The notes under the pieces are model-generated. The model made no database searches, was not told the origin of the DNA, and was given only the letters and a program-made list of their open reading frames with translations. Below, in pieces: positions 40,427-46,064 of a stretch of DNA of 64,000 nt. The stretch is taken from assembly GCF_012044895.1 (NCBI RefSeq), contig NZ_CP050695.1:2820501-2884500 (forward strand). Direction: 5' to 3'. A program made the translations under genes and the position numbers. The DNA comes from Aquisalimonas sp. 2447. GTDB lineage: Bacteria; Pseudomonadota; Gammaproteobacteria; Nitrococcales; Aquisalimonadaceae. Position 1 is the first letter of the stretch. Every line of letters starts with the position of its first letter.

Positions 40427-40792
40427 TTACTTGCTCTGCCCGGCGGCCTTGGAGACGTTCTGGGCACTTTCCTGGGCAACCTTCTGTGCGTTCTGCGCGA
40501 AGGCCTGGTTCAGGGAAACCACCTTCTCGGCGTCGCCCTTCATACGCTCGCCCAGATCCTTGGCAACTTTCTGCTGGTTCTCGACATAGGCGCGGACGTC
40601 GGACGGATCCTTCACGTCCAGGGCAGCGCGGGCCTGCTGCACGCCGGTCTCGGCGTAGGCCTTGGCGGCCTCGAACTGCAGGTTCGCGAGCTGCTCGACA
40701 TGATCCAGCACCATGCTGGCGTAGGTGCGCGCCGGGGCGCCGAAGGTGCTGTCGAACTGCTTCTGCATCTGGGTCACGGTTTCATTGCTCAT
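40427..40792 (-). CDS. Phasin family protein
   Basis: A 121-residue, almost entirely helical protein (NETVTQMQKQFDSTFGAPAR, VLDHVEQLANLQFEAAKAYA, VQQARAALDVKDPSDVRAYV) of the phasin_2 type. Phasins coat polyhydroxyalkanoate granules and control their size. An AGGAGG sequence lies just upstream of the ATG. The frame is open upstream through the neighbouring gene but without coding character. The PHA synthase is 3.4 kb away. Confidence 0.9.
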   Translation of the reverse strand: MSNETVTQMQKQFDSTFGAPARTYASMVLDHVEQLANLQFEAAKAYAETGVQQARAALDVKDPSDVRAYVENQQKVAKDLGERMKGDAEKVVSLNQAFAQNAQKVAQESAQNVSKAAGQSK

Positions 40793-40925
40793 GATCAACC
40801 TCCTCTGGATTCGTTGGATCTGCAAAGGCCCTCTGCCTTTGTTGCGATGCAATATAGCAAAGCAATTGCGGCAGCGCAACATCCAGGAATCCGGTCGTAG
40901 AGGCGGTCCTAGTGTCCCGAAACGA

Positions 40926-40952
40926 AAAAGGCCGGTCCTGGACCGGCCTTCA
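40926..40952 (-). terminator. Intrinsic terminator of the repeat-protein gene
   Basis: AAGGCCGGTC and GACCGGCCTT are complementary arms; on the minus strand the hairpin is followed by TTTTT. It lies downstream of the gene ending at 40983 and separates it from the phasin gene. Confidence 0.8.
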
Positions 40953-40982
40953 AGGAAAAGAGGGACACGCCCTGCAACGCTG

Positions 40983-41690
40983 TCACTGCATGCCGGGGCT
41001 ACCCCCCGGAGCAGTGTCGCCGGCACCGGGGCTTTGCTGCTGCTCACCGATCTGCCCGGGCTGTTCGCCCGCGCCAGGCGCCTGCTGCTGGGCTCCCGGT
41101 TGCTGACCCTGCTGAGCTGGCGCTGCTCCGGACTGCCCGGGAGTCGCCGCCTGTTGACCCGGAGCCTGACCCTGCTGACCCGGAGCCTGACCCTGCTGAC
41201 CCGGGGCCTCGCGCTGCTGGCCAGGGGCCGCACCCTGTTGACCCGGTGTCTGGCCTTGCTGACCGGGAGCCTGTCCCTGTTGCCCCGGAGCCTGCCCTTG
41301 CTGTCCCGGGGCGCCGTCCTGCCCTGGCGCGGCAGGTTGCTGCCCCTGGGTTCCACCGGGCTGACCGACGCCGGCACGGGCATCGGCACCGCCACCCTCG
41401 ACACCCAGGCCGGAACGGGACTGGTGCGGGTCTTCACCTGCCTGCTGTTGCTGGCGAATGCGCTCCCGAACCGGGGGGCCCTGATCGATTTCGCCGCCGC
41501 CGGGCTGGCCGGCGCCCGGCTGTTGCGGGCCACCCATGCCCGGCTGACCCTGCCCCGCGCCGGTGGCACGATCTGCGGCCGACCCCGTACCCGGCGCCGC
41601 GCCGCCGGCCCCGGGCCCGTCCAGGGCGATCAACGCCACCGGGAACGCGAAGGCAAGCATCGCGCAGGCTGTCTTCAATCCTGTCCTCAT
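40983..41690 (-). CDS. Exported Gln/Gly/Pro-rich repeat protein
   Basis: A 235-residue low-complexity protein. A signal-like helix (TACAMLAFAFPVALIALDG) is followed by a Gly/Gln/Pro-rich tail with about ten copies of a 7-residue unit of the type QAPGQQG in the centre (residues ~120-190). A short charged region (PPVRERIRQQQQAGEDPHQS) separates the two parts. There is no Cys after the signal. The composition predicts an unstructured, extracytoplasmic polymer-like protein; no known family is recognised. The DNA is correspondingly repetitive. Confidence 0.7.
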   Translation of the reverse strand: MRTGLKTACAMLAFAFPVALIALDGPGAGGAAPGTGSAADRATGAGQGQPGMGGPQQPGAGQPGGGEIDQGPPVRERIRQQQQAGEDPHQSRSGLGVEGGGADARAGVGQPGGTQGQQPAAPGQDGAPGQQGQAPGQQGQAPGQQGQTPGQQGAAPGQQREAPGQQGQAPGQQGQAPGQQAATPGQSGAAPAQQGQQPGAQQQAPGAGEQPGQIGEQQQSPGAGDTAPGGSPGMQ

Positions 41691-41789
41691 AACGTACTCC
41701 TGGATTGCCTACGGCACTGAAAGGCCGCCTGATAAACGGACTGCCGCTATGTGTGACACTGCTGAATAATGCGTGTTCCCCACAGCGTA

Positions 41790-42251
41790 TCAACGCTGTT
41801 CCGGCGGATCACCACGCCGGTATTCGCCCTCGATCGCCTCGCGACCCTGTGCCGGCCGATCGGACGTCTGCCCCTGCACCGGCCCGTACTGGACATGCAC
41901 GCGACGCATCAGTGCATGGATTATCAGCCGCCGCGTTGCCGGAATCAGACAGGCGAACCCGATCACGTCCGTCGCGAACCCGGGAGTCAGCAACATGACG
42001 CCGCCCACCCCGAGAGCAAGCCCCTCGAGCATCTCCACCGCCGGAACGGCACCCCGGTCGAGGTTGATGCGTGCTCGCTGCAGTGTCTGCAGGCCCTGAT
42101 GGCGCAGCAGGGCGCCCCCGATGACGGCAGTCAACACACACAGGCCAATGGTAGCCAGCGCGCCAATGACCTGACCGACCTCGATCAGGATGAACAGCTC
42201 GACCAGAGGAACAACGATCAGCAGTAGCAGCAGTAGCAGCAGTACGGGCAC
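41790..42251 (-). CDS. fxsA: FxsA family membrane protein
   Basis: A 153-residue inner membrane protein. VPLVELFILIEVGQVIGALA and GLCVLTAVIGGALLRHQGLQ, then PAVEMLEGLALGVGGVMLLT PGFATDVIGF, are FxsA signatures. FxsA overproduction in E. coli relieves phage T7 exclusion by the F plasmid. The GTG at 42251 places the first helix at the N-terminus with a GAGGTG just upstream; the frame stays open to 42326. The poly-Leu start is encoded by a (CAG/TAG)-like repeat, CAGCAGTAGCAGCAGTAGCA on the plus strand. Confidence 0.82.
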   Translation of the reverse strand: MPVLLLLLLLLIVVPLVELFILIEVGQVIGALATIGLCVLTAVIGGALLRHQGLQTLQRARINLDRGAVPAVEMLEGLALGVGGVMLLTPGFATDVIGFACLIPATRRLIIHALMRRVHVQYGPVQGQTSDRPAQGREAIEGEYRRGDPPEQR

Positions 42252-42348
42252 GGCACACCTCGGCGCGTTCTGGGCAAGTGAAGGCAACACTGAGAGCGGA
42301 ATGGCGACGACGACGGCCGATTGCAACCCCCGGGGGTCGTTTCCTGCG

Positions 42349-42714
42349 TCAGTGGACGTGCTCCGGCTCGGAGGTCAGGCGCAGCTTCCAGTCGCCGCCG
42401 TGGGCCCGCGCGCACTCCTCCTCACTGTCAAAGTCCACATGCTGGCGGATGTCGCTTACCGTTACGCCGGCCGCCTCCAGCGCCTCCTCGGTGAGATGAT
42501 TCAGGTATGCCTCGTGCCCCGCCCGCAACGCCTCGGCAAGGTGGCGATTACTGTCGAACACCCAGACCACATGGATGTTCGTGGTGACTTCGCCATACTC
42601 CATGACGTGGGTCACCCACTGGAACCCGGGGATTTCCCCGCGGGCCGCTTCACACGCCCGGCCCAGTGTGGCGTTGAGTTCATGCTCCAGGTTCTTGCGT
42701 TCCGACTCGTTCAT
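42349..42714 (-). CDS. Conserved hypothetical protein
   Basis: A 121-residue, soluble, acidic protein (LEHELNATLGRACEAARGEI, FQWVTHVMEYGEVTTNIHVV, WVFDSNRHLAEALRAGHEAY). The C-terminus DFDSEEECARAHGGDWKLRL looks like a conserved ending. No signal peptide or membrane segment. I do not recognise the family. The ATG overlaps the stop of a short upstream frame (ATGA), suggesting coupling with it. Confidence 0.65.
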   Translation of the reverse strand: MNESERKNLEHELNATLGRACEAARGEIPGFQWVTHVMEYGEVTTNIHVVWVFDSNRHLAEALRAGHEAYLNHLTEEALEAAGVTVSDIRQHVDFDSEEECARAHGGDWKLRLTSEPEHVH

Positions 42715-42845
42715 TCCTCAGGGTCCACGGTAATGCCGCTGTCGGCACAGAATGAGTGCAGATCGTCGATCACTCGCTCCGGCAACGTCAACGTCATCGA
42801 TACACCCTCGCCATAGCCGACGTGATCGATCCGGGCATCATGCAC
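42711..42845 (-). CDS. Small ORF, possibly the detached C-terminus of the upstream gene
   Basis: Starting at GTG 42845 the frame encodes 44 residues: HDARIDHVGYGEGVSMTLTL then PERVIDDLHSFCADSGITVD. It ends by overlapping the next ATG (ATGA). The frame is the same as that of the 168-residue protein ending at TGA 42897, and is open between the two, so it could be that protein's C-terminus cut off by a nonsense codon, or an independent small gene starting at this GTG or at the ATG at 42797. Confidence 0.45.
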   Translation of the reverse strand: MHDARIDHVGYGEGVSMTLTLPERVIDDLHSFCADSGITVDPEE

Positions 42846-42896
42846 CTCGCTCCAGTATTGAGGATGGGACGCCCGGCGGCGGGCACCGGATAGCCG

Positions 42897-43403
42897 TCAC
42901 CCGTCGTTGGGCGCATTGGCCGTGGGGGACAGGCCGTACTCTTCCACGCCGAAGCGTTCCTCATCGCGACGCAGCCCAAGCCAGACCCGGTCGCCCGCCT
43001 CGGCCAGCACCTCATCCACGGCATCGGCCGGCAGGAACAGCACCTGCTGCTCCACCCCGGCCGCCGCTTCGACGGTCGCCCGCCAGTCGCCATCCTGGCG
43101 GGGATCGCACCCTGGCGCGAACACGGGTGCTGGCGCTTCTCCACCAATCCCGTTACTGACCAGGCACAGGCCGTCGCCGATACACACCTGCAGGCCCGCG
43201 GGGACTGCGTCCAGCGCCAGATGCTCGCGCGGCGGCAGTTCGCCCCGGGGCGGTTTCGGCGCTTCGGGGTGACGAAAGCGTGCCTCCAGCATCTGATCCG
43301 CCGTCGGTTCATGCTGGCTGCACTGGCTCGCATGGGCCAGCAGCGCGCGCACACGCTCCGCGTCAAAATCAAGCCAGTTCCATTCCTGCGCGGTGGCCGT
43401 CAT
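42897..43403 (-). CDS. Hypothetical protein
   Basis: A 168-residue acidic, soluble protein beginning TATAQEWNWLDFDAERVRAL, with a Pro-rich stretch (FRHPEAPKPPRGELPPREHL) and a C-terminal region LFLPADAVDEVLAEAGDRVW followed by GLRRDEERFGVEEYGLSP. No family is recognised. The TGA at its end is followed in frame by about 61 further sense codons. It is on the strand opposite to the riboswitch-controlled gene and diverges from it. Confidence 0.6.
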   Translation of the reverse strand: MTATAQEWNWLDFDAERVRALLAHASQCSQHEPTADQMLEARFRHPEAPKPPRGELPPREHLALDAVPAGLQVCIGDGLCLVSNGIGGEAPAPVFAPGCDPRQDGDWRATVEAAAGVEQQVLFLPADAVDEVLAEAGDRVWLGLRRDEERFGVEEYGLSPTANAPNDG

Positions 43404-43494
43404 TGATCCGCCCCGTCGTCAAAAGGCCTCAAAGTGTAACAACTCGCCGGCGGGGTTGCACCGACCCAATCCACCCTATATCTTGGGTTTCGTC

Positions 43495-43704
43495 TTCACA
43501 GAGACTCAACATGCTGAGTCCAGCGGGGAACACCGGTGAGAATCCGGGGCTGTCGCGCAACGGTATGGCGAATGTACTCGCCGAGCCCGATCACCGCCGA
43601 AGACGTCACGGGAGCCTCGCGCCAAGGTTCCGCGGTACTGGTGCACCCACCACCCGCCAACCCCGCGACGGCTTCTCACCCACGGATGATCACGGGAGAA
43701 GCCC
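43495..43704 (+). ncRNA. Cobalamin (B12) riboswitch with SD-sequestering hairpin
   Basis: The core reads GCGGGGAACACCGGTGAGAA then TCCGGGGCTGTCGCGCAACGG, matching the B12-riboswitch consensus GGGAA...GGTG..AATCC...GCTG.C.CGCAAC.GT in the sense direction. GCCGAGCCCGATCACCGCCG follows, as expected for the 3' part of the core. At the end, GGCTTCTC (43670-43677) pairs with GAGAAGCC (43696-43703), a hairpin that hides the ribosome binding site GGGAG just before the ATG at 43705. This predicts translational OFF control by adenosyl- or another cobalamin. Confidence 0.85.
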
Positions 43705-44136
43705 ATGAATACTGCGAGCCTGCATACTGCCCACACTACGCGGCCGCCCGGAGCACCACTGGAAACCCTGGTGCTGCGCGGCCGTCTGACGCCGGCCTTG
43801 CGTCGGCTACTGGCAGGCCTGGGCGTGCACATGGAACCTGTACGCTGGAGCGGATTCGTCGGCCCGGAACTCGAGCACCTGCACGGCACTACGACCACAC
43901 CGGCGCCGGAATGGCTGGATCCGGATACCGCCGAGGACCTGCTACAGGTGCTCAGGGAAATGGAAGCCCGCCGCAAGGCACCTGAGTGGGCGCGGCAGTG
44001 GCTGGTCAGTCACCGGGCCGGCACTTTGCTGAATGGCGACGGCTCGCTGGAAGTGCCCGACGCCCTGCCGCTGGACCAGCTTCTGGGCCTGCCCAGCGCA
44101 AGGCGCGGTGCAATCCGATCAGCGGCGAGACGCTGA
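43705..44136 (+). CDS. Uncharacterised protein under a cobalamin riboswitch
   Basis: A 143-residue protein that I cannot place in a family. It starts NTASLHTAHTTRPPGAPLET and includes LRGRLTPALRRLLAGLGVHM, PEWLDPDTAEDLLQVLREME and LEVPDALPLDQLLGLPSARR. It is probably soluble, Arg- and Leu-rich, with no signal peptide, membrane helix or Cys residues. The upstream riboswitch implies a job in cobalamin synthesis, uptake or a B12-sparing reaction, but the sequence lacks motifs of known Cob/Cbi/Btu proteins. It stands alone: the next gene (phaC) is convergent. Confidence 0.7.
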   Translation: MNTASLHTAHTTRPPGAPLETLVLRGRLTPALRRLLAGLGVHMEPVRWSGFVGPELEHLHGTTTTPAPEWLDPDTAEDLLQVLREMEARRKAPEWARQWLVSHRAGTLLNGDGSLEVPDALPLDQLLGLPSARRGAIRSAARR

Positions 44137-44225
44137 ACGGCTGACAGCCTCTGGCTCTGTAGCCCCCGGGAGCCCACCTCAGCGGGCAGAGGCCAGATCG
44201 CTGCCCCGGAGCCTGCGCTCCGGGA

Positions 44226-45980
44226 TCACTTCTGGTGCACGTACTTGCCGGGGGCTGGATACAGGGGCGCGTACCCCGCCGCGGCCGCACCCATCTCCGG
44301 CGGCTTCACCTTGTTGCCCGAGCGTGCCTGCAACCACGACAGCCACTCGGGCCACCAGGAGCCCTCCTGGACCGGCGTCTGCTCCATGAAGTCGTCGGTC
44401 TGGAGCATCAGCTCGTCGGGCTGGTGGGTATGCACGCGGTAACGGCGGCGCGGATGATCCGGCGGGCTGACGATGCCGGCGTTGTGCCCGCCGTTGGTGA
44501 GCAGGAAGGTCACCGGACTGCGGGCCATGCGATTGATCTTGTAGACCGATGGCCACGGCGCCACGTGGTCCTTCTCGGTGCCCACCACGAAGAACGGCAC
44601 CTTGACGTCGGAGAGGTGCACCGCGTCGTCATCCACTGCGAAGACGCCATCGGCAAATTCATTGTCCAGATACAGCCGCTGCAGGTACTCGCTGTGCATG
44701 CGGTAAGGCAGCCGGGTGGCATCGGCGTTCCAGGCCATCAAGTCGTTCATGGCGTAGCGCTCGCCCTGGAGGTACTGCCGCACGGAGGTGGACCAGATCA
44801 GATCCTGTGAGCGCAGAAGCTGGAACGCGCCGGCCATGCGCCGACCATCCAGATAGCCGGTCTCCCACATGATGTCGTCGAGGAACGTGACCTGGCTGTC
44901 GTCGATGAACAGGCCCAGCTCGCCGGGTTCGGAGAAATCCGCCTGGGCGGCGAAAAGGGTCAGGCTGGCGAGGCGCTCATCCTTTTTCCGCGCCATGGCG
45001 GCGGCTGCGATCATCAGCAGCGTCCCACCGAGGCAATAGCCGACACCGTGCACCGGCTTTTCCGGGACGATGGCATTGATCGCCTCCAGCGCGGCCATGA
45101 CCCCGGAGCGACGGTAGTCGTCCAGTGACAGGTCACGGTCACCCTGATCCGGATTCTTCCAGGAGATGGCGAACACCGTATAACCTTGCCCCACCAGGTA
45201 ACGTACCAGGGAATTCTCCGGGCTGAGATCGAGAATGTAGTACTTCATGATCCACGCCGGGACAATCAGCACAGGCTCCGGGTGCACCCGCGCCGTTGCG
45301 GGCTCGTACTGGATCAGCTCCATGAGCCGGTTGCGATACACCACCTTGCCGGGCGTCACGGCGACGTTGTTGCCAGGGACATAGTCCCCGGCCCCCGTGG
45401 GCGCCGCGCCGCTGATGCTGCGCTGGACGTCTTCCCAGAAGTAGCGGGCGCCGCGTGTGAGATTGGCGCCGCCCTCGTCCATGGTCTGGCGGAGCAACTC
45501 GGGGTTGGTCAGCAGGTAATTGCTGGGCGAGATCATGTCCAGGACCTGGCGCCCGAGGAAGTTCACTACCTCCTCGTGATGGGGCGTCACGCCGCGCACG
45601 CCGGTGGTTGCGTTGTGCCACCACTGCTGCGTCAGCAGAAACGACTGGTACACGAGGTTGAACGGCCACTGCTGCCACTCCTCCGCCGCGAACCGCCGAT
45701 CATTGGGAAGTGGGTCAATGCAGGGCGTGGCACCGGCCTCCTGGCAGTGTACCGAGTATTGGGCGAACCGACCGGCCTTGCGCAGAACCTTGTCCAGCAA
45801 CTGCATTTGCTTGCCAGGCGAGCTCGCCAGGTGCACCGCCCAGTCCAGGTAGGCGAGCTGCAGCGCAGCGGGCGACAGCCCCATGGTCGCCCTGCCGATG
45901 GCCACCCGCACCATGCGGTCCAGCGGTGACGGCGGATCTGGCGGGTTGATGTCATGCTGTGGAACTGTAGCCCGGGACAT
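44226..45980 (-). CDS. phaC: Poly(3-hydroxyalkanoate) synthase (class I-like)
   Basis: A 584-residue PHA synthase that polymerises hydroxyacyl-CoA. The N-terminal PhaC_N domain (NDRRFAAEEWQQWPFNLVYQ) precedes the alpha/beta-hydrolase domain with the lipase-like box GVGYCLGGTLL (catalytic Cys), the Asp region VVGTEKDHVAPWPSVYKI and the His in TNGGHNAGIVSPP. The length fits class I. The ATG at 45980 has GGAG 6 bases upstream. A perfect FNR box lies between it and the divergent universal stress gene; the phasin is nearby, so granule formation is likely in this organism. Confidence 0.94.
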   Translation of the reverse strand: MSRATVPQHDINPPDPPSPLDRMVRVAIGRATMGLSPAALQLAYLDWAVHLASSPGKQMQLLDKVLRKAGRFAQYSVHCQEAGATPCIDPLPNDRRFAAEEWQQWPFNLVYQSFLLTQQWWHNATTGVRGVTPHHEEVVNFLGRQVLDMISPSNYLLTNPELLRQTMDEGGANLTRGARYFWEDVQRSISGAAPTGAGDYVPGNNVAVTPGKVVYRNRLMELIQYEPATARVHPEPVLIVPAWIMKYYILDLSPENSLVRYLVGQGYTVFAISWKNPDQGDRDLSLDDYRRSGVMAALEAINAIVPEKPVHGVGYCLGGTLLMIAAAAMARKKDERLASLTLFAAQADFSEPGELGLFIDDSQVTFLDDIMWETGYLDGRRMAGAFQLLRSQDLIWSTSVRQYLQGERYAMNDLMAWNADATRLPYRMHSEYLQRLYLDNEFADGVFAVDDDAVHLSDVKVPFFVVGTEKDHVAPWPSVYKINRMARSPVTFLLTNGGHNAGIVSPPDHPRRRYRVHTHQPDELMLQTDDFMEQTPVQEGSWWPEWLSWLQARSGNKVKPPEMGAAAAGYAPLYPAPGKYVHQK

Positions 45981-46064
45981 TCGCTGCTCCTGGTTCAACG
46001 CGAACCCAAATGAAAAGAGTGGCTTGATCACCTTCCATTACAAGGAAAAAACCGGGGGCTTCTG

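Follow-up and report, generated by a model that had tools for sequence, protein, structure and literature searches.

The locus raises the question of why a cobalamin riboswitch should precede a single small gene without recognizable relatives, and where the RNA came from. An initial annotation of the 64,000-nucleotide stretch of the Aquisalimonas sp. 2447 genome analyzed here (the window) had placed a cobalamin riboswitch in sense orientation ahead of an uncharacterized reading frame. An Rfam scan of the whole window returned two matches, namely one tRNA and, at 43468-43615 on the + strand, a match to the Cobalamin family RF00174 (31.6 bits, E 3e-4). The covariance-model scan that the annotation had called for thus gave a significant match in the claimed orientation, which exceeds the gathering cut-off of the family (31.5 bits) by 0.1 bit; in the whole-genome scan with the Cobalamin model, the same copy had an E-value of 4.5e-6. 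The related model RF01482 scored it at 45.4 bits, short of the 50 bits at which that model has its cut-off. The genome's three further cobalamin riboswitches reach 86-96 bits; as read from the sequence, the target at L027 and at L028 is a gene for a TonB-dependent receptor, which at L028 lies within a btuB/cob-like cluster, and the target at L029 is a cluster of cob-like genes. We count the score of the window copy, barely above the cut-off, against our preferred explanation. The aptamer core GGGAACACCGGUGAGAAUCCGGGGCUGUCGCGCAACGGU is, however, intact, and we therefore attribute the marginal score to the compact form of the RNA rather than to a broken core. That the match arose by chance and that the downstream hairpin is an ordinary ribosome-site hairpin is a reading to which that margin of only 0.1 bit lends some support; against it, the three orthologous Aquisalimonas leaders also match the Cobalamin model above the cut-off (38.7, 38.6, and 32.9 bits), and compensatory changes appear when the nrdA leaders of the order are aligned. 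Given this comparative evidence, a chance match appears very unlikely, and we regard the reading as close to negligible.

The compact aptamer, delimited by the RF00174 match and by a count of pairings, spans 43491-43605 on the + strand, as do all of the elements described below. Its helices are P1 (43491-43497/43599-43605), P2 (43503-43507/43516-43520), P3 (43523-43526/43594-43597), P4 (43533-43536/43544-43547), P5 (43548-43551/43584-43587), and P6 (43567-43571/43578-43582), the last being a 5-bp hairpin with a 6-nt loop (43567-43582). The riboswitch claimed at this place is thus present, although its start is not at 43495, as had been proposed, since P1 begins at 43491. L5 (43552-43565) contains a UCGCG motif (43553-43557) that is invariant in all seven leaders compared, and the P13 hairpin that follows the aptamer (43611-43631; GGAGCC/GGUUCC), with its loop L13 UCGCGCCAA (43617-43625), is conserved in Aquisalimonas and occupies the equivalent place, in a shifted register, in the sister genus. 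By their complementarity (CGCG/CGCG), L5 and L13 likely form a kissing loop.

The core helices P3-P6 of the RF00174 type are present together with the B12 box, whereas the P7-P11 arm, which extends P6, forms the second four-way junction, and is the defining trait of class I cobalamin riboswitches, is absent. By its score and core, we classify the RNA as a cobalamin riboswitch, the outline of which resembles class II. With class II members, namely env8 and Mycobacterium tuberculosis ppe2, it shares the missing P7-P11 arm, a GGAA in J3/4, and a translational OFF design, but within Rfam it lies nearest to RF00174 and RF01482. Moreover, other nrdA leaders of the class carry a large P6 arm, and the Aquisalimonas RNA therefore looks like a shrunken class I switch. 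The ppe2 element is likewise a compact B12 switch whose target is of uncertain function (PMC11260477). The riboswitch of Escherichia coli btuB is also translational and couples an L5/L13 kissing loop to ribosome-site access, but differs from the Aquisalimonas RNA in its target, its size, and its P6 arm. Across the order, the nrdA riboswitches (L064-L066 and L076-L087) are compact and lack the P7-P11 arm, whereas several nrdA leaders elsewhere in the class retain it; a class I switch has apparently shrunk within one order.

Upstream of the aptamer, a promoter-like block (TTGCAC ... CTATATCTTG; 43456-43484) contains TTG and CTATAT.TTG elements that are invariant in all seven leaders of Aquisalimonas and the sister genus. 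A simple promoter scan of the leader reported no promoter, and the block is therefore called from conservation; its position places the transcript start likely at the 5' arm of P1. Downstream of the aptamer, two mutually exclusive arrangements are predicted. The sequestering hairpin of the OFF state pairs 43670-43677 with 43696-43703 (GGCUUCUC/GAGAAGCC; -14.8 kcal/mol, z -2.1) and covers the GGGAG ribosome site ahead of the ATG at 43705, just as the initial annotation had described it. The hairpin is conserved in the Aquisalimonas genome G001 with a compensatory change (GGCUCCUC/GAGGAGCC), and in a further one, G004, inspection by eye allows the ribosome site, which is displaced there, to be paired (GGCUUCUCC/GGAGGAGCC). 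Missing from the earlier description was the alternative, an anti-sequester helix of the ON state, in which 43610-43616 pairs with 43670-43676 and 43617-43621 pairs with 43664-43668. Here, GGGAGCCUCGCG (43610-43621), comprising the 5' arm of P13 and part of its loop, is complementary to CGCGACGGCUUCU (43664-43676). The minimum-energy fold computed for 43608-43707 (-36.9 kcal/mol) contains this helix, as does the RNAalifold consensus; all of its pairs are retained in the four Aquisalimonas leaders, and it is incompatible with both P13 and the ribosome-site hairpin. No intrinsic terminator was found in the leader.

Because the anti-sequester ties up the P13 strand as well as the one that covers the ribosome site, we propose the following ON/OFF model. 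Without ligand, the 5' side and the loop of P13 would pair with 43664-43676, so that the ribosome site stays accessible and the gene is ON. With ligand, L5 and L13 would kiss and lock P13, and the released strand 43670-43677 would close over the ribosome site, turning translation OFF. This scheme matches the established logic of corrinoid riboswitches (PMC10653944). We infer corrinoid binding and the OFF direction from the sequence, which has the design of a translational OFF switch.

The OFF structure was examined in a structure alignment of seven leaders, namely four from Aquisalimonas and three from the sister genus. In this alignment, 94.9% of the cells are paired, and both sides have changed in 17 cells, many of these changes being single events counted repeatedly, because the seven sequences fall into only two groups. 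None of 500 shuffles reached this covariation, and slid controls gave 0-3. Compensatory changes occur in P1 (U-A to C-G), P3 (C-G to A-U), P6, and the ribosome-site hairpin.

To trace the origin of the RNA, we used a covariance model (R1) made from the four Aquisalimonas leaders, which it scores at 231-266 bits. When 54 genomes of the order were scanned, these leaders were followed in score by 15 matches of 63-104 bits, each of them immediately upstream of nrdA, a gene recognized by its ATP-cone motif. Lower matches, at 36-62 bits, precede TonB-receptor and nrdD-like targets, one evident chance match falls inside a glpK-like gene, and a sample of the whole class yielded further, weaker matches, mostly also before nrdA. 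By blastn, the nrdA leaders of the sister genus match those of Aquisalimonas with best E-values of 5e-12 to 8e-23 and 66-79% identity; inside the open reading frame, no significant similarity to the nrdA region of the sister genus was found, so that significant similarity is confined to the leader. The leaders of the two genera are homologous in the aptamer core, L5/L13, the promoter block, the anti-sequester, and the ribosome-site hairpin, up to the start codon, but in Aquisalimonas the target is an unrelated small orphan and P6 is a plain short hairpin. Thus, the nearest relatives of the RNA stand before nrdA, whereas the RNA itself does not control nrdA and nrdB. The surroundings also differ, in that the sister-genus nrdAB has metR or metE-metR upstream, which we count against our preferred explanation. 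A B12 riboswitch on nrdABS of Streptomyces is on record (Borovok et al. 2006, as cited in PMC5962746).

In searches with working controls, none of the five Aquisalimonas genomes has NrdB, although it occurs in the sister genus and, across the order, in 15 of 54 genomes. The large subunits of the reductase were scanned in three Aquisalimonas genomes and are NrdJ (TIGR02504). While nrdA encodes the class Ia ribonucleotide reductase, a B12-independent enzyme, NrdJ is the adenosylcobalamin-dependent one. From the absence of NrdB and the NrdJ identity of the large subunits, we conclude that the genus most likely lost its B12-independent class I enzyme and kept the switch with a new gene. The NrdJ gene in the window's genome (L055:154-3291, about 600.3-603.4 kb) holds an apparent intein of ~430 residues, with a Cys start, a LAGLIDTDG motif, and an HN|C end; NrdJ of G001 has no intein, and the 1219-codon reductase reading frame of the Aquisalimonas genome G003 may hold one too. 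Cobalamin riboswitches also precede an nrdD-like (class III) gene in two genomes (G005 and G020; L068 and L089), and B12 may control reductases of several classes in the order.

The gene now behind the switch is the 143-residue reading frame at 43705-44136 that the initial annotation had delineated, and its start codon aligns with the nrdA start in the sister-genus leaders. Orthologues of its product, at 44-78% identity, occur in four of the five Aquisalimonas genomes, the window's included, and in a profile search of the kind suggested earlier, all four lie behind cobalamin riboswitches. The RNA and the reading frame always occur together, and G003 has neither; that G003 lives without the gene counts against our preferred explanation. 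Downstream in the window lies phaC on the opposite strand, and at the other three loci no same-strand operon partner is evident; the gene therefore appears to be transcribed alone, as had been claimed. It sits among polyhydroxyalkanoate genes (window 40427-46031; a phasin-like reading frame and phaC, named from sequence), for which no link to B12 was found. The divergent neighbor (42897-43403, - strand, 168 aa) is weakly like DUF3085 (18.2 bits, below the cut-off) and adjoins the riboswitch in G001 and in another Aquisalimonas genome, G002, but was not seen in G004.

The reading frame has a dN/dS of 0.42-0.65, and its third codon positions carry an excess of changes (p 0.0007 to 0.03), which argues for a coding gene under weak purifying selection; the weakness of this constraint is a further point against our preferred explanation. 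These values bear on another explanation, according to which the leader and the reading frame are decaying remnants of the vanished nrdAB operon without present function. It would agree with the loss of nrdAB and with a gene that lacks relatives, evolves fast (dN/dS up to 0.65), and is missing in G003. However, the aptamer core of the window copy is 91-92% identical to those of G002, G004, and G001, while the reading-frame DNA is 82%, 57%, and 59% identical, respectively, and upstream of the leader identity is 21-46%; hence, the core is conserved even where the coding DNA has fallen to 57-59%. In addition, the pairs of the expression platform are maintained by compensation, and the reading frame has stayed open and kept its start codon in four species, with the third-position excess just described. 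We therefore consider a decaying leftover unlikely. Very probably, 43491-43704 is a compact, nrdAB-derived cobalamin riboswitch that would be OFF with corrinoid and that now controls a genus-specific protein of 139-143 aa, made under B12 scarcity.

That the product resembles no known family of B12 synthesis, B12 transport, or B12-independent enzymes, as noted from the sequence at the outset, agrees with database searches, in which it had no significant relative in Pfam, NCBIfam, PHROGs, PADLOC, PDB sequences, plasmids, phages, or viral contigs. A profile search of 369 genomes of the class and 54 of the order found the protein in Aquisalimonas only, and the sister-genus nrdAB operons contain no relative of it. 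AlphaFold modeled the window protein poorly (pLDDT 50), whereas the G004 orthologue as query gave a usable model (pLDDT 75, pTM 0.67) of an alpha/beta fold, with strands at residues 19-23, 41-44, and 55-59 and helices at 29-37, 72-87, 93-103, and 122-135. Searches with this model gave no Foldseek match at E < 0.4 (PDB) or < 0.1 (viral) and no VIA-align Z above 3.9, with KH-, PII-, and PRK-like rows tied. Neither the CCG domain nor the ATP-cone is among these fold matches, an absence that excludes neither and does not show a new fold.

Both domains enter through proposals on the ancestry of the protein. The first would derive it, without the cysteines, from the CCG domain that is found in GlcF, the glycolate oxidase iron-sulfur subunit: four of five weak profile matches in other genomes of the class fall on one 40-residue stretch in GlcF-like proteins (named from sequence), and hhalign scores 42 against 14 +/- 2 for column shuffles. 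The best E-value of 7e-4 per genome is, however, about what chance gives over 369 genomes, matches within one family are not independent, Pfam CCG was not reported for the protein, and the cluster-binding cysteines (C...CCG...C) are absent, the window protein having no cysteine at all. The resemblance is short and may serve as a lead of low weight, and a GlcF descent seems quite unlikely. The second proposal, a truncated and diverged NrdA N-terminus (ATP-cone) still behind its own riboswitch, draws on the position of the start codon at the nrdA start in the aligned leaders. It is opposed by hhalign P values of 0.27 to 0.88 against the NrdA N-terminus, NrdA, NrdB, and NrdJ, by global alignment z-scores of -1.8 to 1.0, with NrdA and NrdB no better than column shuffles, and by blastn similarity that is significant in the leader only; we judge it very unlikely. 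A resemblance to the NrdA ATP-cone seen by eye was not supported by the statistics, and a piece of NrdA, NrdB, or NrdJ could not be recognized by either hhalign or global alignment.

What remains to guide the assignment of function is the regulation, from which alone we infer a B12-related role. The mean hydropathy of the protein (-0.09 to -0.35) and the lack of a visible hydrophobic N-terminus indicate that it is probably cytosolic, and the cell probably wants it only under B12 shortage. Since low B12 threatens DNA synthesis in a cell without a class I reductase, and since a former nrdAB switch would release the gene under just this condition, the protein is most simply a shortage factor; most likely, it would be a soluble one that eases B12 shortage by helping NrdJ, salvaging B12, or slowing DNA replication. 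More specifically, and tentatively, the B12 switch may have been recruited after the loss of the class I reductase to a new family that protects the B12-dependent DNA supply, for instance by chaperoning cobalamin to NrdJ or by restraining replication.

To our knowledge, riboswitches normally stay with their gene families. The RNA described here is a riboswitch of a known kind with an unusual swap of target, and among open-licence papers we found none in which a B12 switch is reported to have moved from nrdAB to an orphan gene of a different family. Across a bacterial order, one riboswitch can thus be followed from nrdAB to an unrelated orphan, and the swap has occurred in Aquisalimonas, a salt-loving genus that lacks a B12-independent aerobic route to DNA precursors. 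Provided that the protein is functional, the way in which it is regulated would be a strong lead toward a new factor of B12 shortage in organisms that rely on B12 for replication.
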